A DNA stretch of 64,000 nucleotides from a virus. This document shows positions 8,223 through 63,385 of this stretch, in pieces. The position numbers and the translations under genes are program-made. Every line of letters starts with the position of its first letter. The first letter of the stretch is position 1. Below the pieces are notes generated by a model. That model had not been told where the DNA came from and searched no databases. It was given only the letters and a program-made list of their open reading frames with translations. The stretch lies in the IMG/VR virus record IMGVR_UViG_3300038465_000091, positions 1 through 64,000 of that record, one strand, 5' to 3'.

Positions 8223-11200
8223 GGGTCACCTGCTTCAGGAATTCCTCCGGCACGTGGTCGAGCTTCTTTCCCGTCACAGTCACGACCTTACCGCCGATCT
8301 TGATATTGACGGTGTTCGGCCCCCTGCCTAGAGCTTCCTTGAGTTGCCGCTGAAGTTCCGCGTTGGTCTGCACCTCATCGATCAATTCGTAGATGGGCTC
8401 GGTCCCGTGTAACTCTGCCAAAATCTTCGGTAGGTTAGCGACAGCCTCAGCGTGCTTTTCAGCTTCAGCTTTGTCCTTGGCGGCACGCTCGGATTCCATC
8501 TCCCGCATGGTCTCCGCATTCATTCTATGAGCAACCTCGGCGATGGCAGCCTGATCTATCGTTGCGGGGATCGTAGCAGTGATCTCATTCTCCGATACAG
8601 TGATGAGCGGAAGCTCGGCTTGGACTTCTTCACCGAGGATGAGCAGCGTCGGACGGATAACCTTCGCATCCAACGGAATCGCCCCTGAGTATCCGAACGA
8701 CGGCATCATGCCGCGATCTTTCGCAGTAAGGCCGACACGTTGCTCGTACTGTTCCAACGTTTCCATCGTGGCATCCTGTCCATCAGGCACGTGGTCAATC
8801 GTCCAGTATTCATGCAACTGAAGAATGGCGATCAGAATGCGCTGGGTTTCCTTGGGGTTCTTCGCCTTATCGAGAGCGTTGATCGTTTCGTACACGTCCG
8901 TATCGTGCACGCGACCGACAGCCCGTGGATGCAGGTTCTCTATCATCCAAGCCTTGACTTTTCCAACTTTGATCGGATCGCCCGATGTCAGGGAGTTGAG
9001 CATAGCCTTGACAGACTTGGAGTCAAACAGGTCGGGCAGGTATCTCTCCATGCCTTCGACGTGCGTCCAAGCGTAGGCTTTCTTCGGGTCCGTAGCGTTC
9101 CAGTCAACATCCCAGCTATGCCCGTATTCCGCATCGCACTCAATCGGCACGGGCCACTTCATCTGCTCGTGGTACTTGCGGAGCTTCATGAGGCGGGTGA
9201 CACGCGGCAGAATGAACGGGACGTACTCGTTCTTCACCGAGAAATCAACTTCGTCGTGCACCGACGTATGCAGACGGAACACCGACTGTATCAACGGGTC
9301 GCTTTCCACCCACTTACGGAGGCGGTTCAATGCAATACGCATGAAGTCTCCGCAGATGCCTTGAATGGGAGCGTTGACGGCGATACGTTGGACCTTGCCG
9401 ATGAACTTGTTGTACTCCATCGCGTTGCGGACGCCCGAATCAGGGTCTTTCCACAGGCGGTCGGCGCGACCTTTATACTTCTGGTAATCCGCGTCGTTCC
9501 CCGCCTTCTTTGCCTGCTCCGCTTCGCGGTTGTTTCCATAGTATTCGTAAAGGTTATGACGTTCTTCGTCAAACGGCTTGTGCAGGTGCAGGGCTTCCAA
9601 TGCCGAGTTGAAGTTGATGACGCGACCCGTCGAGGTTTCGCAAATCATCTCGGTCTTCGCCTTCGTCTGTTTCATCTGCACGAACTCGGCAAACTTAGGC
9701 ACGCCTTCCCAATATTTATCCACCATCTTCTTGCAATCTTCCTTGGTGATATTGGGGTCTTTTTCCTTCATGTTGAGGTAGATGGCGTGCTCAGTGCCGC
9801 CATACAGGAGGGCGAAGTTGATGATCTTAGCGATATCGCGGAAGCCCTTCTTCTTGTCGGCTGAAGTGTTCGGGTCGTTGAATTCGGGGAAGACGTTGGA
9901 CGCAGTTAGGGTGTGGAAATCGCCCTTGCCCTTAAGGAATTCGTCAATGAACTTTGGCTCACCGCTCATGTTGGCGGCGGCTCGCATCTCGATGTTCGAA
10001 TAGTCAACGGAGAACCACGTCCAGCCCGGGGGCGAACACATCAGCACACGCAGGTTGACGACTTCGTTGGCATCCATCTGCGTATCTTTGATGAGGATGC
10101 CGTATTTCTCCGCGCAAGACGTACACTTCGGGACAAGACAGATTGCGTATCCCGTGTACTGCCCGATGTGGTTCTTGATGATGCCTTTGGCTTTCTTGAT
10201 GACACCTTTCTCAAGATGGAAACAGGACGGGTCCAAGTCGGCTTCGGTGTACTCCTCCATCTCATCGAATGGAATTTCATCGGGCGACAGTACGTTGCCG
10301 TGCACACGCCACTGCTTTTCGGGCTCGACCTTCTTGACGCCCTGCGGGTTCATACCGAAGCCGCCGTCTTCCTCGAAGTCCCCGCCTGATGCCGATAGAC
10401 GACCGCCAGCTACCGTGCTCTGTCGCAAGTGAATACGGGCGGACAAGTCCTTCGGGTCATACCGCAGGTTGGCTGGGTGGAGTGCTCCGTACTTCTTGAA
10501 CTCCATAAGGGTCTTAAGGAATTCATCATCTGGATGGTCTTTCACCAAGTCGTCGATGGCATCGCTATCGCAGGACGGGGCTCCAGCCTTCTTTGTCCAG
10601 TGCTCGATCTCGTACCCCTTGACCCCGTATAGAAGCTTCTGCAACTGCGGGCCGCTGCCGGGGTTGAACTTGTCATCCTCGTTGACCTTGCCCTCTTCAT
10701 CAGCGGGCTCCTTAAACCCAGCCTCAAGAGCTAGATTGCGGAGCTTGTTGTACAGACTGTCGAGCAGCCCTTGGTGCCACTTGGCGGTTCGCCCGTGACG
10801 CTCGGTGTCGATCAGGAACCGTTGACGCTCAACGAAGATGATGCTGTCCACCAACTCGTGGTCGATGCGGTGCGGCAGGCGACGGCTACGTGCCAAATCC
10901 TTCATCTTCTGCCACAGGAGCCACGTGCAGATGGCATCACCTGCGGCATACCAAAGAGCAATGTCCGTGGGAACCCATGTGAACGGGGCGTACACGTTCT
11001 TCTTGCCGTGCTTTTTATCCTGTTGGGACAGGGCCTTTATCTCTTCTTCCGTGCAATTGCAGAGAGGCTTCTTGGTCAGCGGGCACACCACGGCTTTGAC
11101 TACGGAGATTTCTTCTATCTCGATCTGCTCGATACCCAGCACGGTCTTGGACAACGCCTTCAAACCACCAGCGGAGCCCGTGTACTTCTGCTTTTTATCA

Positions 11201-19279: not shown

Positions 19280-19354
19280 TGGTCGGGGAGGCGAGATTCG
19301 AACTCGCGATCCCATGCTCCCGAAGCATGTGCGTTACCGCTACGCTACTCCCCG
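19280..19354 (-). tRNA. tRNA-Pro (CGG)
   Basis: C1-G72 start typical of Pro, loop TTCGGGA on CATGC/GCATG, perfect CGGGGAG/CTCCCCG acceptor, encoded CCA. Confidence 0.9.
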
Positions 19355-20026: not shown

Positions 20027-20116
20027 TGGTCAGGATGAGAGGATTTGAACCTCCAAGGTCATAAAGACACCTGCATCCGAGGCAGGACGGCTGCCAAGTT
20101 ACCGTTCTACACCCTG
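20027..20116 (-). tRNA. tRNA-Pro (CGG), long variable region
   Basis: C1-G72 acceptor, D-arm ACGG/CCGT, anticodon loop CTCGGAT on CCTGC/GCAGG, encoded CCA. The 14-nt variable region can form GTC-TTTAT-GAC, as in class II tRNAs, unusual for Pro. Confidence 0.7.
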
Positions 20117-20129
20117 ACATTGTAAAATT

Positions 20130-20216
20130 TGGTCGGGGTGGGGAGATTCGAACTCCCAGTGATCTTATCTCCCGCTTCCAAAGCGGGTCGGCTCCCAACT
20201 ACCGATTTACACCCCG
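20130..20216 (-). tRNA. tRNA-Pro (UGG), long variable region
   Basis: Acceptor CGGGGTG/CACCCCG, D-arm TCGG/CCGA, loop TTTGGAA on CCCGC/GCGGG, encoded CCA. Variable region about 13 nt, like its neighbour at 20027. Confidence 0.75.
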
Positions 20217-20342: not shown

Positions 20343-20414
20343 TTAGAGCACTTCACCCCCGCGCACGGTAGGCGTGCACGGTCGAAACATCGGGGTTGGT
20401 CGCATTGTGTTCAT
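20343..20414 (-). CDS. Pro-rich leader peptide ORF
   Basis: 23 codons including four Pro codons (CCA, CCG, CCG, CCT) upstream of the Pro tRNA genes. The CCCCGATG inside it (20388-20395) can pair with CATCGGGG at 20311-20318, which can instead pair with CCCCG at 20329-20333: two exclusive structures. Weak ribosome site. Proposed regulatory leader. Confidence 0.45.
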   Translation of the reverse strand: MNTMRPTPMFRPCTPTVRGGEVL

Positions 20415-20534: not shown

Positions 20535-20543
20535 ATAATACCA
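20535..20543 (-). promoter_or_regulatory. Extended -10 box TGGTATTAT
   Basis: Upstream of the Pro-rich leader ORF and the Pro tRNA genes; no gene begins at it directly, so it probably drives the tRNA operon. Confidence 0.6.
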
Positions 20544-20606
20544 TGGAAGTTTGAATTTTAGTTAGGAAAATCGAAATTTATTTCCAAGGCACGGGGTCAT
20601 GGGCGT

Positions 20607-23636: not shown

Positions 23637-23722
23637 TGGTGTCCGAAGGGGGACTTGAACCCCCACGACCTTGCGGTCACTGGCTCCTAAGGCCAGCGCG
23701 TCTGCCATTCCACCACTCGGAC
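23637..23722 (-). tRNA. tRNA-Leu (UAG)
   Basis: Class II tRNA, loop CTTAGGA on CTGGC/GCCAG, A73, encoded CCA. Last gene of the Leu/Tyr operon. Confidence 0.95.
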
Positions 23723-23727
23723 AAATT

Positions 23728-23812
23728 TGGTGCGGCTAAGAGGAGTCGAACCTCCACGGGGTTGCCCCACTAGGGCTTGAGCCTAGCGCGTCTGCCATTC
23801 CGCCATAACCGC
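23728..23812 (-). tRNA. tRNA-Leu (CAA)
   Basis: Class II, loop CTCAAGC on CTAGG/CCTAG, variable stem GGGG/CCCC, encoded CCA. Confidence 0.95.
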
Positions 23813-23921: not shown

Positions 23922-24007
23922 TGGTGCCGCCGACAGGGATCGAACCTGCATGGCTGTAAACCACTGGATTCTGAGTCCAGCCTGTCTGCCAATTCCAGCA
24001 CGGCGGC
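23922..24007 (-). tRNA. tRNA-Leu (CAG)
   Basis: Class II, loop CTCAGAA on CTGGA/TCCAG, encoded CCA. Confidence 0.95.
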
Positions 24008-24014
24008 AAAATTT

Positions 24015-24099
24015 TGGTGTGGCCGGAGGGACTTGAACCCTCACACCTTTCGGCATCACCCCCTCAAGATGACGTGTCTGCCAATTCCACCACGGCCAC
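24015..24099 (-). tRNA. tRNA-Leu (GAG), first copy
   Basis: Class II, loop TTGAGGG on TCATC/GGTGA, encoded CCA. Confidence 0.9.
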
Positions 24100-24200: not shown

Positions 24201-24290
24201 TGGTGTGCCTAAGAGGACTTGAACCTCCACGGGGGTATCAGCCCCAACGGACTCTCAGCCCGCCGCGTCTGCCAGTTTCGCCATAGACAC
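24201..24290 (-). tRNA. tRNA-Leu (GAG), second copy
   Basis: Class II, loop CTGAGAG on GCGGG/TCCGT (weak stem), A73, encoded CCA. Confidence 0.85.
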
Positions 24291-24295
24291 AAATC

Positions 24296-24383
24296 TGGTG
24301 CCGGGAGCAGGATTCGAACCTGCGAACCTCCTAAGAGGGACTGCTTTACAGGCAGTTGGTTTTAACCGCTCACCCATCCCGGC
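24296..24383 (-). tRNA. tRNA-Tyr (GUA)
   Basis: Class II with GAGCGG D-arm, loop CTGTAAA on ACTGC/GCAGT, perfect acceptor GCCGGGA/TCCCGGC, encoded CCA. First gene after the attenuator terminator. Confidence 0.95.
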
Positions 24384-24394
24384 ATATTCTCCAC

Positions 24395-24425
24395 AAAAAT
24401 CAAAAGCCGCCTTTTCAGGCGGCTT
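24395..24425 (-). terminator. Terminator/attenuator before Leu/Tyr tRNA operon
   Basis: AAGCCGCC (24418-24425) pairs with GGCGGCTT (24404-24411), followed on the minus strand by TTTTGATTTTT. It lies between the leader ORF and the first tRNA, so transcripts from the promoter must read through it to reach the tRNAs. Confidence 0.85.
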
Positions 24426-24448
24426 GTTCAAATTCGGGTGTAATAACG

Positions 24449-24532
24449 TTACCCTTTGAACACACCGCCCCGACGATAGCTAAGGTACAAGCTATACAGT
24501 CGCAGTGACGGTGATAGGGTTACGTGGGTCAT
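24449..24532 (-). CDS. Leu/Tyr-rich leader peptide
   Basis: 27 codons from ATG 24532 to TAA. It contains five Leu codons (CTA, CTG, CTG, TTG, CTT) and three Tyr codons (TAT, TAC, TAT) within codons 6-19. These are exactly the codon families read by the downstream tRNAs Leu(UAG, CAG, CAA, GAG) and Tyr. Downstream, GGGGCGG (24465-24471) can pair with CCGCC of the terminator stem around a TGTTCAAA/TTTGAACA hairpin, a possible antiterminator. The ribosome site (GAAGTG) is weak. Confidence 0.6.
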   Translation of the reverse strand: MTHVTLSPSLRLYSLYLSYRRGGVFKG

Positions 24533-24547
24533 AATGTTCACTTCTAC

Positions 24548-24556
24548 ATAATACCA
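24548..24556 (-). promoter_or_regulatory. Extended -10 box TGGTATTAT of Leu/Tyr tRNA operon
   Basis: Start of transcription would be about 24541, 9 nt before the leader ATG. TTGACTACC precedes it directly, too close to act as a standard -35. Confidence 0.6.
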
Positions 24557-24606
24557 CGGTAGTCAAGATTTTCGCTAGGAAAATCAAAAATTATTTTTCG
24601 GCAATC

Positions 24607-25802: not shown

Positions 25803-26111
25803 TCATTTTGCCCAACTCGGGTCTATCAATTTGAAATTCGTCCACAACGGTAAATCAAGTGTTGGCTTGAAAGGTTTCTTGCCGTCGCAACACCGTTCGC
25901 AGACTTGAGCATTGCCTATTTCTGTGAAGAAAAGGTGCTTCTCACAAAAATAGAGGCCGCAACCGTTGTCCCCACCGTAAAGGTCACCGCCGCAAACGTA
26001 CGACAATCCACGGTCAATTCTTTTCCCGCACTTGGGGTGGTCGCAAATGGAGGGAACCCCATACCCAATATCCCGCTTCCAGCGTTCATCGTAGCCAACT
26101 GCCCAGCCCAT
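25803..26111 (-). CDS. Zinc-finger-like conserved phage protein
   Basis: 102 residues with CDHPKCGKRI, CGLYFCEKHLFF and CERCC, the pattern of small phage proteins with a RING/treble-clef-like zinc site. Overlaps the upstream gene by one base. Confidence 0.65.
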   Translation of the reverse strand: MGWAVGYDERWKRDIGYGVPSICDHPKCGKRIDRGLSYVCGGDLYGGDNGCGLYFCEKHLFFTEIGNAQVCERCCDGKKPFKPTLDLPLWTNFKLIDPSWAK

Positions 26112-59785: not shown

Positions 59786-60283
59786 ATGGAAACCCAAACC
59801 TGTACTAAATGCCGCGACCCCAAATCTGTAGATGAGTTCGCCTTCAAAAGTAAGGCGGCGGGCAAGCGCAACTCGTGGTGCAAGTCATGCCAAAAGCCCT
59901 ACAAAGACCAGCATTACCAAAACCACAAACAAGTGTACATCAAGAAAGCTCACGAGTATCGAGCGGATTACAAAGCGCGGATTTATGCTCTCCTCGCCGA
60001 ATACTACAAGCAACACCCGTGTGTCGATTGCGGGGCGGATGACTTCATTGTTTGTCAATCTGACCACGTGAGGGGCAAGAAGTTTGAGGGTATCTCAAGG
60101 CTTATTCAACAGGATGCTTCGTGGGAAAGAATACTAGAAGAACTTAAGAAGTGTGAGACTCGATGCGCTAATTGCCACATGCGAAAAACAGCCAAGCAAT
60201 TTGGTTGGTACAAAGATTTGGTAGCGTACAGGGGAATCGAACCCCTCATCATTCGCTTGAAAGGCGAAGGTCCAAACCGATAG
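59786..60283 (+). CDS. HNH endonuclease inserted in tRNA-Glu
   Basis: 165 residues. CTKCRDPKSVDEFAFK, CKSCQKPYKDQ zinc ribbon, then PCVDCGADD...CQSDHVRGKKFEG, CANCHMRK. TATTGT lies 5 nt before the ATG. The last 21 codons run antisense through the 3' half of the intact tRNA-Glu at 60219. A displaced tRNA-Glu 3' half lies upstream. Confidence 0.88.
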   Translation: METQTCTKCRDPKSVDEFAFKSKAAGKRNSWCKSCQKPYKDQHYQNHKQVYIKKAHEYRADYKARIYALLAEYYKQHPCVDCGADDFIVCQSDHVRGKKFEGISRLIQQDASWERILEELKKCETRCANCHMRKTAKQFGWYKDLVAYRGIEPLIIRLKGEGPNR

Positions 60284-60294
60284 ACGGGTACGCC
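60219..60294 (-). tRNA. tRNA-Glu (UUC)
   Basis: Loop CTTTCAA on TTCGC/GCGAA; acceptor GGCGTAC/GTACGCT; encoded CCA. Its 3' half overlaps the convergent HNH gene end. Confidence 0.92.
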
Positions 60295-60310
60295 ATTGGA
60301 CTTCTAAAAT

Positions 60311-60385
60311 TGGTGCGCCGTGAGGGATTCGAACCCCCGATCTTTTGCGTGTCATGCAAACGATTTGCCACTAATCTAACAGCGC
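60311..60385 (-). tRNA. tRNA-Val (GAC)
   Basis: Loop ATGACAC on TTTGC/GCAAA; acceptor GCGCTGT/ACGGCGC; encoded CCA. Confidence 0.9.
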
Positions 60386-60386
60386 G

Positions 60387-60484
60387 TGTACCCGAGAGGG
60401 ATCGAACCTCCGACCTGCCTCCAGCAACCCATGCCGAAGCATAAAAGCTGATGGAGACCGCTCTGCCGGTTGAGCTACAGGCAC
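60387..60484 (-). ncRNA. tRNA-like RNA with 23-nt insert in anticodon loop
   Basis: Acceptor GTGCCTG/CGGGTAC and normal D- and T-arms, but the anticodon loop is 30 nt and contains ATGC-TTCG-GCAT. Either an intron-containing tRNA or a non-decoding tRNA-like RNA. CCA not encoded; it abuts tRNA-Val. Confidence 0.55.
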
Positions 60485-60494
60485 AAACAAAAAC

Positions 60495-60555
60495 TGGTGG
60501 AAAGGAAATCCCGGCAAGGATTTTACATTGCTACATGTCTGCAACAACCCACCCA
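60495..60555 (-). ncRNA. Miniature tRNA-like RNA, 61 nt
   Basis: Acceptor-like TGGGTGGG/CCTTTCCA with encoded CCA, one internal hairpin TTGC/GCAA and a T-arm-like hairpin AAATCC/GGATTT. No D-arm or anticodon arm. Confidence 0.4.
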
Positions 60556-60562
60556 TAAAAAT

Positions 60563-60638
60563 TGGTGCGGCTTGGACTGAATTTCACGTCCGACCCCTCC
60601 CCCGTTATAGGAGTGCTCTGTTCCTGAGCTAAAGCCAA
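60563..60638 (-). tRNA. Degenerate tRNA, AAC or UAA anticodon
   Basis: Regular D-arm and CCA, anticodon stem CTCC/GGGG with loop read as ATAACGG or TATAACG, but the T-loop (TGAAATT) lacks the TTC motif and the acceptor end is mismatched. Identity uncertain. Confidence 0.45.
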
Positions 60639-60642
60639 CATC

Positions 60643-60718
60643 TGGTGGACCTAGTGGGATTCGAACCCACGACCTCCGCAGTGCGAGCGCAGCGTTCTCC
60701 CAACTGAACTACAGGCCC
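60643..60718 (-). tRNA. tRNA-Ala (CGC)
   Basis: Loop CTCGCAC; G3-U70 pair, the alanine identity element; encoded CCA. Confidence 0.93.
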
Positions 60719-60724
60719 AAAACT

Positions 60725-60801
60725 TTAGACGGTGAGATTCGATACTCACATAAGCGCATCGACTAGCGATATAGCCGATCTCATCATTCAATGAGCTTAG
60801 G
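60725..60801 (-). pseudogene. Degenerate tRNA-like sequence
   Basis: T-arm GTGAG...CTCAC with an 8-nt loop and a D-arm-like stem remain, but acceptor and anticodon arms do not pair well. It lies in the gap between Ala and Val tRNAs. Confidence 0.35.
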
Positions 60802-60852
60802 ACGCTATTTATTTTTCGCCCTCTCTACGGGCGCTTAACTTACGTCTAAACT

Positions 60853-60928
60853 TGGTGCACCTTGAGGGATTCGAACTCTCGACTCCCACCGTGTGAAAGT
60901 GGTACTCTGGCCGCTGAGTTAAAGGTGC
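60853..60928 (-). tRNA. tRNA-Val (CAC)
   Basis: Loop TTCACAC on CCACT/GGTGG; acceptor GCACCTT/AAGGTGC; encoded CCA. Confidence 0.93.
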
Positions 60929-60932
60929 AAAA

Positions 60933-60989
60933 TGGTGGAGGCACGTTAAGGGCTTTCTTGCTCGCCCACCCTTACGGTCGTTCACCCCC
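60933..60989 (-). ncRNA. Miniature tRNA-like RNA, 57 nt
   Basis: GGGGGT/GCCTCC acceptor-like stem ending ACCA and an internal GGGC/GCCC hairpin; no anticodon arm. Confidence 0.35.
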
Positions 60990-60996
60990 GTAAACT

Positions 60997-61073
60997 TGGT
61001 AGCGCCTGCGGGAGTCGAACCCGCCGTCATTCGAGTGAGAGTCGAAGGTCCAAAGCCGATAGACGGAGACGCC
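60997..61073 (-). tRNA. tRNA-Glu (CUC)
   Basis: Loop CTCTCAC on TTCGA/TCGAA; acceptor GGCGTCT/AGGCGCT; encoded CCA. Confidence 0.93.
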
Positions 61074-61143
61074 ACAATCATATAATTGGCCTCTACAGTG
61101 AAATTCTTCACGATTTTGGCCGTTTTATACGACGTAATAAAAT

Positions 61144-61219
61144 TGGTGGACCTAAGGGGGCTCGAACCCCTGACCTCTCGAATGCCATTCGAACGCTCTC
61201 CCAACTGAGCTACAGGCCC
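61144..61219 (-). tRNA. tRNA-Ala (GGC)
   Basis: Loop ATGGCAT on TTCGA/TCGAG; G3-U70; encoded CCA. Confidence 0.93.
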
Positions 61220-61230
61220 AACGACAGTGA

Positions 61231-61296
61231 CGCAGTGTATCGGATTTGAACCGATGTTTCCCGCAGGCGTCCTCAACCAGCCTAGACGAACACCTA
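61231..61296 (-). ncRNA. tRNA-like RNA with shortened anticodon arm
   Basis: T-arm ATCGG-TTCAAAT-CCGAT intact and partial acceptor pairing, but only about 10 nt (CGCCTGCGGG) where an anticodon arm should be. Not able to decode. Confidence 0.4.
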
Positions 61297-61338
61297 TCAC
61301 CATCTGTGCGCGTGTACATCGCGCAGTCTTTCAAAACT

Positions 61339-61413
61339 TGGAGCGGAACACGGGGCTCGAACCCGCGACCTGTTCGTTGGCAACGAACCGCTCTACCACT
61401 GAGCTAGTTCCGC
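61339..61413 (-). tRNA. tRNA-Gly (GCC)
   Basis: Loop TTGCCAA on GTTCG/CGAAC; U73; acceptor GCGGAAC/GTTCCGC; encoded CCA. Confidence 0.95.
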
Positions 61414-61434
61414 AAACTTTCAAAAGCAAAAGCA

Positions 61435-61591
61435 TGTGTGTCCCAGTCGGTCGATAGGATTACCAGCCCCTACCACAAGCGGTTCGGGCTTTCGCCGCAA
61501 CCGCCGAACCTCAATCTGAGGTCGTCGAGTCTCGCAGCCGAAGCTACGACGTTTTTCTACCCACTTAAGGGAGTCCACGCGGATACACACA
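61435..61591 (-). ncRNA. 157-nt RNA closed by terminal stem
   Basis: TGTGTGTATCC and GGGACACACA pair at the two ends (one bulge). Inside, GGTTCGG/CCGAACC and CCTCA/TGAGG hairpins. No ORF. Between Gly tRNAs in the GNN operon. Confidence 0.5.
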
Positions 61592-61598
61592 ACTCATT

Positions 61599-61654
61599 TG
61601 GGGAGGATGGGTGTTAATCCAGTTTTGACCTCGTGCCAACACACGAGCCTCCCC
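61599..61654 (-). ncRNA. Miniature tRNA-like RNA, 56 nt
   Basis: Perfect 7-bp acceptor GGGGAGG/CCTCCCC with A discriminator, hairpin CTCGTG/CACGAG and a short second hairpin. Confidence 0.4.
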
Positions 61655-61659
61655 CGATC

Positions 61660-61734
61660 TGGAGCGAGCAACGGGAATCGAACCCGTCTCATCGGCTTGG
61701 AGGGCCGGGGCACCGCCAGTTATACCTTACTCGC
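61660..61734 (-). tRNA. tRNA-Gly (UCC)
   Basis: Loop CCTCCAA (C33 instead of U33) on CGGC/GCCG; U73; acceptor GCGAGTA; encoded CCA. Confidence 0.88.
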
Positions 61735-61745
61735 TTAAAATATTC

Positions 61746-62085
61746 GTGTTGAACCTGTAGCCGGGATTTTGTCCGCCAGCTTACGCCAGTTGGACGACCA
61801 TTCCTCTAGGCGTTGCATCGCTACAACGCTCAAGCACCCTACCCGCTGATTACCCGCCTCTTGCGAAGCGAACGGATCGAACACAATCCTGCTCAGCCTA
61901 TTTGGGCTTGCTGCACGTGGAGATTGCTCGTTTCACCCGAACTGAATCGGCTCGTCTCTGTAGCTCTAATCGTCAACACCCTTGCGGGTGCCGCCCAGCC
62001 GTTAGCTGGCACGCTGTTCTTTGCAGTCCCGAACTTCCTCCCCTGCGCTCAACGCCGGACTTGGTTGGGTATTTCACATCAACAC
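61746..62085 (-). ncRNA. rnpB: RNase P RNA (bacterial type)
   Basis: About 340 nt. P1 is GTGTTGA/TCAACAC at the two ends. Conserved regions appear in order: GGAGGAAGTTCGGGAC (CR-I), ACAGAGACGAGCCG (CR-II/III), GCAAGCCCAAATAGGC (CR-IV), GGGTAGGGTGCTTGAG (CR-V), and ACAAAATCCCGGCTACAGG near the 3' end. It is encoded inside the GNN tRNA operon between Gly and Cys tRNAs. The RNA subunit would mature tRNA 5' ends; no protein subunit gene is in the window. Confidence 0.93.
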
Positions 62086-62234
62086 TGCCGATGCGAATCT
62101 TACACGCTTCCAAGCACAGGACGTATATCTACGCAGCAGCGGTCGTCCAATTCAACACAAATTTTCAAAGACCTAATAGACGATGCAAAAGCTTTGTTCT
62201 GCACTCAATCACCCGATAAACTGGGCGATGATTT

Positions 62235-62309
62235 TGGAGCACCCGGTCGGTGTCGAGCCGACTCATAATGGTTTTGCAGACCATTGCGTTCCCGTTTCGC
62301 CACGGATGC
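62235..62309 (-). tRNA. tRNA-Cys (GCA)
   Basis: Loop CTGCAAA on ATGGT/ACCAT; acceptor GCATCCG/CGGGTGC; U73; encoded CCA. Confidence 0.92.
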
Positions 62310-62313
62310 AAAT

Positions 62314-62694
62314 TTAAATGCGTTTCAATACCTGTGCTTCTTCAAAAGTCGCTAGGCGGTGATGATTAGCACAAAGCACATCACACTTTGCGGCTTCTCG
62401 CTTCACTCGTACAAGGGACCAACCCTTCTTACGGGTTTCAGATAAATTCAGTTCTTTTGTCGCCCTATCGCGATGGGCAAAATCTAAACAGACTGGATGT
62501 TCCCGCCATCCGCAAACTTTACAACCCATCTCCATTTTGTAAGCGTCCAGCCATTGACAAATAACGGCTATCCGCTTTTTATCATTCTTCCGCACCGCTT
62601 TCAAGTGTCGTGCCTTCCGAACTGGATCGGCGTAATACCGCTTCCAGTACCCAGCACGATATTCCTTGCGCTTCTTGCAATCCTTCAACGGCAT
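62314..62694 (-). CDS. HNH endonuclease between tRNA-Asp and tRNA-Cys
   Basis: 126 residues, basic N-terminus, then CKVCGWREHPVCLDFAHRDRATKELNLSE...CDVLCANHHR. ATG lies 5 nt after the tRNA-Asp CCA and the stop lies 4 nt before tRNA-Cys, without a ribosome site, so tRNA processing would release a leaderless message. Confidence 0.85.
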   Translation of the reverse strand: MPLKDCKKRKEYRAGYWKRYYADPVRKARHLKAVRKNDKKRIAVICQWLDAYKMEMGCKVCGWREHPVCLDFAHRDRATKELNLSETRKKGWSLVRVKREAAKCDVLCANHHRLATFEEAQVLKRI

Positions 62695-62699
62695 AAATT

Positions 62700-62773
62700 T
62701 GGCGGGGATACGGAGAATTGAACTCCGATTTTATGATAGACAGTCAAATGTCCTACCCTTGAACGATATCCCC
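62700..62773 (-). tRNA. tRNA-Asp (GUC)
   Basis: Loop CTGTCTA; acceptor GGGGATA/TATCCCC; G73, an Asp identity base; encoded CCA. Confidence 0.93.
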
Positions 62774-62785
62774 GTTCTTAAATTT

Positions 62786-62860
62786 TGGTGGACACGGGGG
62801 GATTTGAACCCCTTCTTTCACTTTGCAAGAGTGACGCATTCCCAGTTATGCTACCGGCCC
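62786..62860 (-). tRNA. tRNA-Ala (UGC), first copy
   Basis: Loop CTTGCAA on TCACT/AGTGA; G3-U70; two acceptor mismatches; encoded CCA. Its 5' end overlaps the stop of the 62851 gene. Confidence 0.88.
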
Positions 62861-63075
62861 ATTTTTGCTGGTTTCGCGACACTCTTCGTGCCGTGTACCA
62901 GATCAAACTCTAATTGCCGAACCACCATCAGGTCCATCTTGAACAGGGCTTCATCCTCGGTGTCGGCAGATGCGACTAGGCCGAGGGTGGGGTGAACCAC
63001 TTTGAATCCCCAATCATACCTCTCGACCTCCACGGTCGTTACCAGCTTGACGATGCGTTGTCTGTCGCGTTTCAT
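62851..63075 (-). CDS. Small hypothetical protein overlapping tRNA-Ala
   Basis: 74 residues from ATG 63075 (GGAGAGAAG upstream). Strands (WGFKVVHPTLGLVASADTE) then helix. The last four codons and stop lie in the 5' end of the tRNA-Ala gene, so processing would cut the message. Confidence 0.7.
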   Translation of the reverse strand: MKRDRQRIVKLVTTVEVERYDWGFKVVHPTLGLVASADTEDEALFKMDLMVVRQLEFDLVHGTKSVAKPAKMGR

Positions 63076-63090
63076 CTTCTCTCCGAATCT

Positions 63091-63169
63091 TGGTACGCCG
63101 AGAGGGACTCGAACCCCCGATAATACTTGCTTGTAGGGCAAGTGGTTTCGCCGCTCACGCCATCGGCGT
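63091..63169 (-). tRNA. tRNA-Val (UAC), tentative
   Basis: Loop CCTACAA (C33) on CTTGC/GCAAG; acceptor ACGCCGA/TCGGCGT; encoded CCA; Tyr-like D-arm. Anticodon by position is UAC. Confidence 0.65.
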
Positions 63170-63179
63170 AAATTTACCG

Positions 63180-63213
63180 CAAAAACAAAAAGGACGCCTT
63201 TTTAGGGGCGTCC
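63180..63213 (-). terminator. Terminator between Val-rich leader and GNN tRNA operon
   Basis: GGACGCC and GGCGTCC form a 7-bp stem followed on the minus strand by TTTTTGTTTTTG. It lies 11 nt before tRNA-Val and 26 nt after the leader ORF stop. Confidence 0.88.
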
Positions 63214-63238
63214 TCGGAATTCGTTGGTTTTAGGCTAT

Positions 63239-63385
63239 TTAGCCACCCCAACCATCCAAGGACACCATATCTCCTACCGGCGCCGCGTCAGCGGCGACAG
63301 TACCGCGTTCGGCTGTACAAGCCGACAGGACCACGCCTGCACAGACGACCGTCACGACAACACCGTCTTGGAGAATGGAGTTCAT
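63239..63385 (-). CDS. Val-rich small lipoprotein or leader peptide
   Basis: 48 residues. A run of Val codons (VVVTVVCAGVVL) leads to lipobox LSAC (Cys23), so it may be a small lipoprotein. It also has ten Val, seven Ala and seven Gly codons before a terminator and the Val/Ala/Gly tRNA operon, so it could be a regulatory leader. TATTGT box upstream. Confidence 0.5.
   Translation of the reverse strand: MNSILQDGVVVTVVCAGVVLSACTAERGTVAADAAPVGDMVSLDGWGG

Follow-up and report, generated by a model that had tools for sequence, protein, structure and literature searches.

What are a transcription terminator and a short open reading frame (ORF) rich in leucine (Leu) and tyrosine (Tyr) codons doing between a promoter and a cluster of transfer RNA (tRNA) genes for the same two amino acids? 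This arrangement is found in the window analysed here, a 64-kb stretch that forms the start of a 223.5-kb phage record in IMG/VR (IMGVR_UViG_3300038465_000091, hereafter G000). The portal protein of this phage is 51% identical to that of Tunturiibacter phage Tunturi_5, with Bacillus phage G a more distant match, and a DNA polymerase scan of genome contigs yielded no relative. Ribosome-mediated transcription attenuation is classical for amino acid operons, as in the trp, his, leu, thr, phe and ilv leaders (PMC1183508, PMC1262725). We find that the design seen in the window recurs, with other amino acids matched to other tRNAs, ahead of the majority of multi-tRNA operons in this phage group as well as ahead of tRNA operons in unrelated phages, and that these leaders are very probably ribosome-mediated transcription attenuators that sense charged-tRNA shortage and control tRNA genes.

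Reading along the minus strand, on which all window features described here lie, the Tyr/Leu operon begins with an extended -10 promoter element, TGGTATTAT (24556-24548), read directly from the DNA. A good -35 element at the right spacing is absent (TTGACT lies just 7 nucleotides (nt) upstream of TATTAT), and the -10 is preceded by a block running from AATAATTTT to TTCCTAGCGAAAAT; the -10 and this AT-rich block are mostly retained in relatives. There follows a 27-codon leader ORF, MTHVTLSPSLRLYSLYLSYRRGGVFKG (24449-24532), which was checked base by base (ATG ACC CAC GTA ACC CTA TCA CCG TCA CTG CGA CTG TAT AGC TTG TAC CTT AGC TAT CGT CGG GGC GGT GTG TTC AAA GGG TAA) and whose control codons CTA, CTG, CTG, TAT, TTG, TAC, CTT and TAT (24476-24517) occupy codon positions 6, 10, 12, 13, 15, 16, 17 and 19. 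An intrinsic terminator (24395-24425; stem AAGCCGCCTGAAAAGGCGGCTT at 24425-24404, U-tract to 24395) starts 23 nt past the leader stop. Beyond it are tRNA-Tyr(GUA) (24296-24383), two copies of tRNA-Leu(GAG) (24201-24290 and 24015-24099), tRNA-Leu(CAG) (23922-24007), tRNA-Leu(CAA) (23728-23812) and tRNA-Leu(UAG) (23637-23722), which between them read every Leu and Tyr codon of the leader. With the promoter upstream of the terminator, and the U-tract ending only about 12 nt short of tRNA-Tyr, transcripts starting at this promoter must cross the terminator to reach the tRNAs.

Within the leader ORF lies a candidate antiterminator strand, GTCGGGGCGGTGTGTTCA (24457-24474), complementary to GAACAAGCCGCCTGAA (24414-24429), which comprises the terminator 5' arm and part of its loop. 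The predicted pairing has an energy of -20.6 kcal/mol, equalled by none of 1000 shuffles (z -3.4 to -3.9), and folding of the 151-nt leader falls 4 standard deviations (sd) below that of shuffled sequences (z -4.05). With the antiterminator as divider, Leu or Tyr codons account for 8 of 19 codons before it and 0 of 7 after it. The promoter, the 27-codon ORF with its Leu and Tyr codons, the rho-independent terminator, and the tRNA-Tyr and five tRNA-Leu genes that decode the leader are thus all as the initial annotation had described them, and the two exclusive structures it had suggested looking for are predicted by folding and complementarity. The antiterminator it named, GGGGCGG, is present at 24471-24465, but the predicted pairing is longer.

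Taken alone, the codon enrichment of this leader is modest (8/26, binomial p about 0.006), as might be expected if such ORFs were non-regulatory, their composition and terminators being coincidental or the terminators merely ending upstream transcripts. The leader stands beyond chance because it is conserved in three relatives and because the rule also holds for about 20 other tRNA operons. In the three relatives (contigs of 41, 455 and 26 kb), a homologous leader (MTRLTLSSLRLYSYLSGFSGGVFEGLN, MNRVFLASLRLYSYLSGGFGERVRWRGW and MTRVTLSLSLLYTLLSGVGGGVFEG), the terminator and the Tyr/Leu tRNAs are found at the same place, and the Leu/Tyr codon content of the leader, whose conservation had been proposed as a check, is kept as well. 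Two of these leaders have the motif LRLYSYLS in common; the third, MTRVTLSLSLLYTLLSGVGGGVFEG, has diverged in sequence, yet is again dense in CTA, CTG, TTG, CTT and TAT. A fourth related contig is nearly identical to the window, and a DNA pattern scan for the Tyr/Leu leader returned nothing beyond the three relatives already known.

So that ORFs would not be picked by eye, we ran a composition-blind rule on all the sequence analysed, which took any ATG-initiated ORF of 12-60 codons whose stop codon lay 15-45 nt upstream of a strong intrinsic terminator and which had a tRNA no more than 1 kb downstream. This yielded 24 leader/terminator pairs. In a composition test limited to the 21 operons with 12 or fewer amino acids, matching leaders to their own operons gave a sum of log10 binomial p of -72.0, while permuting the operons gave a mean of -14.5 (sd 5.35; best of 50,000, -42.5), and 37 control ORF-terminator pairs from elsewhere averaged -8.9 (sd 2.5). 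A cruder test across 56 tRNA clusters, including phages without leaders, gave -112.1 versus -69.9 (sd 5.4). The match extends to codon boxes where these are split (Arg 13/14, Leu 6/7, Ser 5/7); in the 455-kb relative (G003), for example, TTA is used in the Ser+Leu(UAA) leader, and CTN and TTG in the Tyr/Leu leader. Operon-matching leaders have a stop-to-terminator gap of 18-36 nt, and leaders of unrelated phages (Tunturi_5, phage G, CcrBL9 and SCTP-2) pass individually. Three of the 24 blind-picked pairs were unconvincing (KVP40, a GAP32 tRNA-Met candidate and the first Atu_ph07 pair), which together with the modest Tyr/Leu enrichment is what coincidence has in its favour. Set against it are the permutation and control tests, the antiterminator test and covariation described below, and the position of the Tyr/Leu promoter upstream of the terminator, so that coincidence is strongly disfavoured and, in our judgement, very improbable. 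Sequence-level checks therefore support the attenuation reading given in the initial annotation; as a statement about Leu and Tyr, however, it was too narrow, because other amino acids, tRNAs and phages share the design.

The antiterminator is likewise a general feature. In these leaders, the ORF segment past the control codons is complementary to the terminator 5' arm, being in effect a copy of the 3' arm (TCGGACGGGCC in CcrBL9, GGGCGGCTT in G003, GGAAGGG in SCTP-2). Relative to shuffles, the energy of this pairing had a mean z of -2.58 in the 24 pairs versus +0.16 in the 37 controls (Mann-Whitney p=1.8e-8), and cognate codons account for 61% of codons before the antiterminator but only 29% within or beyond it (p=4.5e-15). 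When a ribosome was modelled at the mid-control codons, the terminator 5' arm was paired at 0.56-1.0 before the 3' arm exists; with the ribosome at the stop codon the 5' arm was paired at 0.04-0.54, after which the terminator formed with probability 1.00. Among 13 relatives of phiCbK, pairing in the antiterminator helix is kept at 98.6%, and at two pairs both partners have changed. Shifting the partner by one column lowers the paired fraction to 52-55%, and the maximum among slid controls was 54.5%; the terminator helix behaves likewise. In Brevundimonas phage Bajun, a U retained in the terminator 5' arm pairs with A in the leader but has only a G as its partner in the terminator 3' arm, suggesting that the antiterminator itself is under selection.

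The architecture is therefore directly seen: leader, matching codons, terminator, antiterminator complementarity with covariation, and the order and spacing of the parts. From it we infer translation, stalling, read-through and short attenuated transcripts. RNA polymerase would start at the upstream promoter, and a ribosome would translate the short ORF dense in codons of the downstream tRNAs. Were charged cognate tRNA plentiful, the ribosome would reach the stop and cover the antiterminator segment in the last part of the ORF. The terminator would then form, and the tRNA genes would go untranscribed, so that little tRNA would be made. Were cognate tRNA short, the ribosome would slow on the control codons and leave the antiterminator free to pair with the terminator 5' arm, allowing polymerase to read into the tRNA operon. 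Each tRNA group would thereby be set by its own supply. The polarity of this response is suggested by the order of the parts, which is that of the trp, his and leu attenuators, and the logic is therefore likely to be the same.

The leader peptide might instead act itself, through nascent-chain arrest or as a small protein, as could be argued from the conservation of LRLYSYLS and of RPTPxFRPCTPTVRGG among close relatives. However, the peptide differs between relatives while cognate composition stays (Tyr/Leu in G004, Val/Ala in G000 versus G003, and Bajun versus phiCbK), and apart from cognate content, no motif is evidently shared by the peptides of different operons. We consider action by the peptide scarcely credible, and attenuation the better account of these leaders.

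Other leaders in the same record follow this pattern. The block from AATAATTTT to TTCCTAGCGAAAAT is found again upstream of two other tRNA operons, Pro and Ile/Thr/Gln, and partly before the transfer-messenger RNA (tmRNA) gene, and a search for repeats of the promoter led to the Pro leader and to a leader outside the window, MKQTLQTRTTTQQITITCVRVGVSGTQGE, that precedes Ile/Ile/Thr/Thr/Thr/Gln/Gln. A promoter class defined by AATAATTTT, TTCCTAnCnAAAAT and an extended -10 (TGGTATTAT or similar) is common to tRNA operons and tmRNA (window 20535-20583 and 24548-24600; record positions 123106 and 131649). The Pro leader MNTMRPTPMFRPCTPTVRGGEVL (20343-20414; CCA, CCG, CCG, CCT), with a promoter of this class at 20535-20543, is conserved in two relatives, and the first gene past it is tRNA-Pro(UGG) (20130-20216), with tRNA-Pro(CGG) at 19280-19354. 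By eye, a further tRNA-Pro-like sequence with the anticodon loop CTCGGAT lies at 20028-20116, which is absent from the ARAGORN output for the window. A third leader in the window, previously unnoticed, surfaced through the positional rule: MNSILQDGVVVTVVCAGVVLSACTAERGTVAADAAPVGDMVSLDGWGG (63239-63385), which is rich in Val/Ala/Gly/Asp/Glu/Cys (31/47 cognate, log10 p -6.5, equalled by 0/37 controls) and has a counterpart in G003. An intrinsic terminator (63190-63215) lies between it and tRNA-Val(UAC), and the operon (60219-63169) runs Val, Ala, Asp, Cys, Gly, Gly, Ala, Glu, Val, Ala, Val, Glu.

This operon also contains an RNase P RNA gene (61741-62086; Rfam RF00010, 139 bits), and RNase P RNA is found in relatives G003 (L037:12128-12502, 167 bits) and G005 (L060:12277-12583, 203 bits). 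Phage tmRNAs were seen at L014:3104-3446 (about position 123104 of G000), matching the permuted model, and in G005 at L060:11464-11821, matching the standard model. There are tRNAs with the CUA (amber) anticodon at L014:9385-9460 and 9464-9543 and at 25852-26052 in G003, one of them predicted to have the four-base anticodon CUAG; general amber recoding is unlikely, as TAG still terminates 20/108 long frames in the record.

Leaders matched to their operons also occur in relatives and other phages. In G003, HALSSSSSSSRSGS precedes Ser+Leu(UAA), KSSRKHQRRNNR precedes Gln/His/Arg/Asn/Lys, and another leader serves Ile/Thr/Gln; between the Ser leader terminator and the first tRNA-Ser of this genome (270580-270925) lies an ORF that by eye is HNH-like (MECQYHRCGKELIG...), as if inserted into the operon. 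The leader of a 114-kb relative, for Val/Gly/Ala/Asp/Glu/Cys/Ile(UAU), includes ATA codons for that Ile tRNA. Further matches are SSSSSSS before Ser tRNAs, QTRTTTQQITIT before Ile/Thr/Gln, YQLQQLPLVLYPY before Leu/Pro/Tyr/Gln and LCLSSYCLSSSLSLS before Leu/Cys/Tyr/Ser. The architecture is present at three operons of Tunturi_5, at four of Salicola phage SCTP-2, and in Bacillus phage G (KCSWFEFDTDFTDVFYCEYTFYS; operon Cys, Asp, Phe, Tyr, Glu, Thr, Ser, Trp). Agrobacterium phage Atu_ph07 (EIIAIERNVFVRAEAAMFWYPI) passes the antiterminator test, the composition test being weak there because of the long tRNA chain. In the Caulobacter phiCbK group, leaders occur in CcrBL9 and about 35 further records, with YRQFVRQIQVVRNIR before Phe, Val, Ile, Ile, Val, Gln, Gln in phiCbK, while Bajun has SYRQNVQNIRVVRFNR before Tyr, Val, Ile, Val, Gln, Asn, Arg, Arg. 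Existing annotation gives the CcrSwift/CcrKarma terminator only as a 'predicted rho-independent terminator', and lists the phage G leader as gp86 and the RBC57 leader as a hypothetical protein, in both cases without function. A 45-amino-acid ORF precedes the Pro/Lys/Leu operon in CcrSwift and phiCbK. We do not claim a second CcrBL9 candidate, MPSRLTAWGAGGSSSGPP, whose gap is outside the rule, or the KVP40 ORF, which has 19 different amino acids, precedes a 27-tRNA array where composition is no guide, and has an antiterminator z of +0.66. Within the tRNA regions of T4, T5, PAK_P1, 121Q, FelixO1, XacN1 and GAP32, no convincing leader-terminator pair was found.

Several observations weigh against attenuation as a complete account. 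Relatives inside one phage group are non-independent samples, and some tRNAs (Met and Phe) of leader-bearing genomes have no leader. In the models, stalling at the final control codon would hide the antiterminator of many leaders, and the terminator still wins at equilibrium in several stalled states, so that kinetics must help. No U-tract terminator was found after the window Pro leader, and no recognisable one after the leaders of the metagenomic phage LR745208.1, whose tRNA operons (L073-L075) have about six short codon-matched ORFs 6-50 nt before tRNAs (for example MNQHLHHHCY before Tyr/Cys/His and MNSYTTSERERESDSERT before Glu/Asp). The Pro and LR745208 leaders may use a different readout step. 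Being codon-matched yet without such a terminator, they fit an alternative in which translation of the leader affects how the RNA is processed or how stable it is: a ribosome that stalls or terminates would alter pre-tRNA folding or cleavage rather than transcription termination; in relative G002, moreover, the post-stop strand is able to pair with the 5' end of tRNA-Pro. About 20 other leaders, however, combine a matching antiterminator with a strong intrinsic terminator that lies within a narrow range of distances, and we judge this alternative improbable, with attenuation preferred.

How do these leaders compare with known systems? Like attenuators of the trp/his/leu type, they consist of an ORF with regulatory codons, an antiterminator overlapping the ORF end and a terminator past the stop, in the same order. 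The short ORF is rich in codons related to the regulated product; except for the Pro and LR745208 leaders, an intrinsic terminator separates it from the first regulated gene; and computation places in or just after it an antiterminator that excludes the terminator. Unlike the trp/his/leu type, the phage leaders would control the tRNAs that read the control codons rather than enzymes, a single leader lists up to about nine amino acids, and a genome carries several independent candidate attenuators. To our knowledge, all known cases of ribosome-mediated attenuation concern amino acid biosynthesis, transport or charging, or the response to antibiotics or ions. Here the regulated genes neither make nor import the sensed amino acid nor charge its tRNA but are themselves tRNAs, a departure from the classical members in a trait that is not part of the mechanism as such. 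T-box riboswitches similarly sense tRNA charging and control transcription antitermination. They bind uncharged tRNA directly, and translation is not involved, whereas the phage information would be carried by a translated ORF. In the window and the leader-bearing loci, the T-box covariance model had no match at the Rfam gathering threshold, nor did the Rfam amino acid leader families match, the only families matched being tRNA, RNase P RNA and tmRNA. Phage-encoded tRNA arrays consist of the same tRNA genes as these operons; one example is Tunturi_5 with its 43 tRNAs, in a paper whose main text makes no mention of leaders or attenuation (PMC11924767). Searches of the open-access full-text literature, which leaves aside most subscription papers and every bioRxiv preprint, turned up no account of attenuation acting on tRNA genes of phages.

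Why phages carry tRNAs, and when these are made, is an open question that is usually argued from codon usage. The leaders spell out in sequence which shortage each tRNA operon answers, and the idea of supply on demand therefore becomes testable in laboratory systems such as phiCbK with Caulobacter, phage G with Bacillus or Tunturi_5 with Tunturiibacter. Tentatively, since we hold this at somewhat less than even chances, large phages may split their tRNA genes into amino-acid-specific regulons with one attenuator each, forming a homeostat that would supply every tRNA even as those of the host are degraded or fall to cleavage by defence nucleases, with RNase P RNA under the same switch in one operon type and the codon list of each leader rewritten as the tRNA content of its operon changes. 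A simple search rule (a cognate-codon ORF, an antiterminator, a terminator and tRNAs) may bring more cases to light, and if these leaders work as proposed, they would carry ribosome-mediated attenuation beyond metabolism and into the translation machinery itself.
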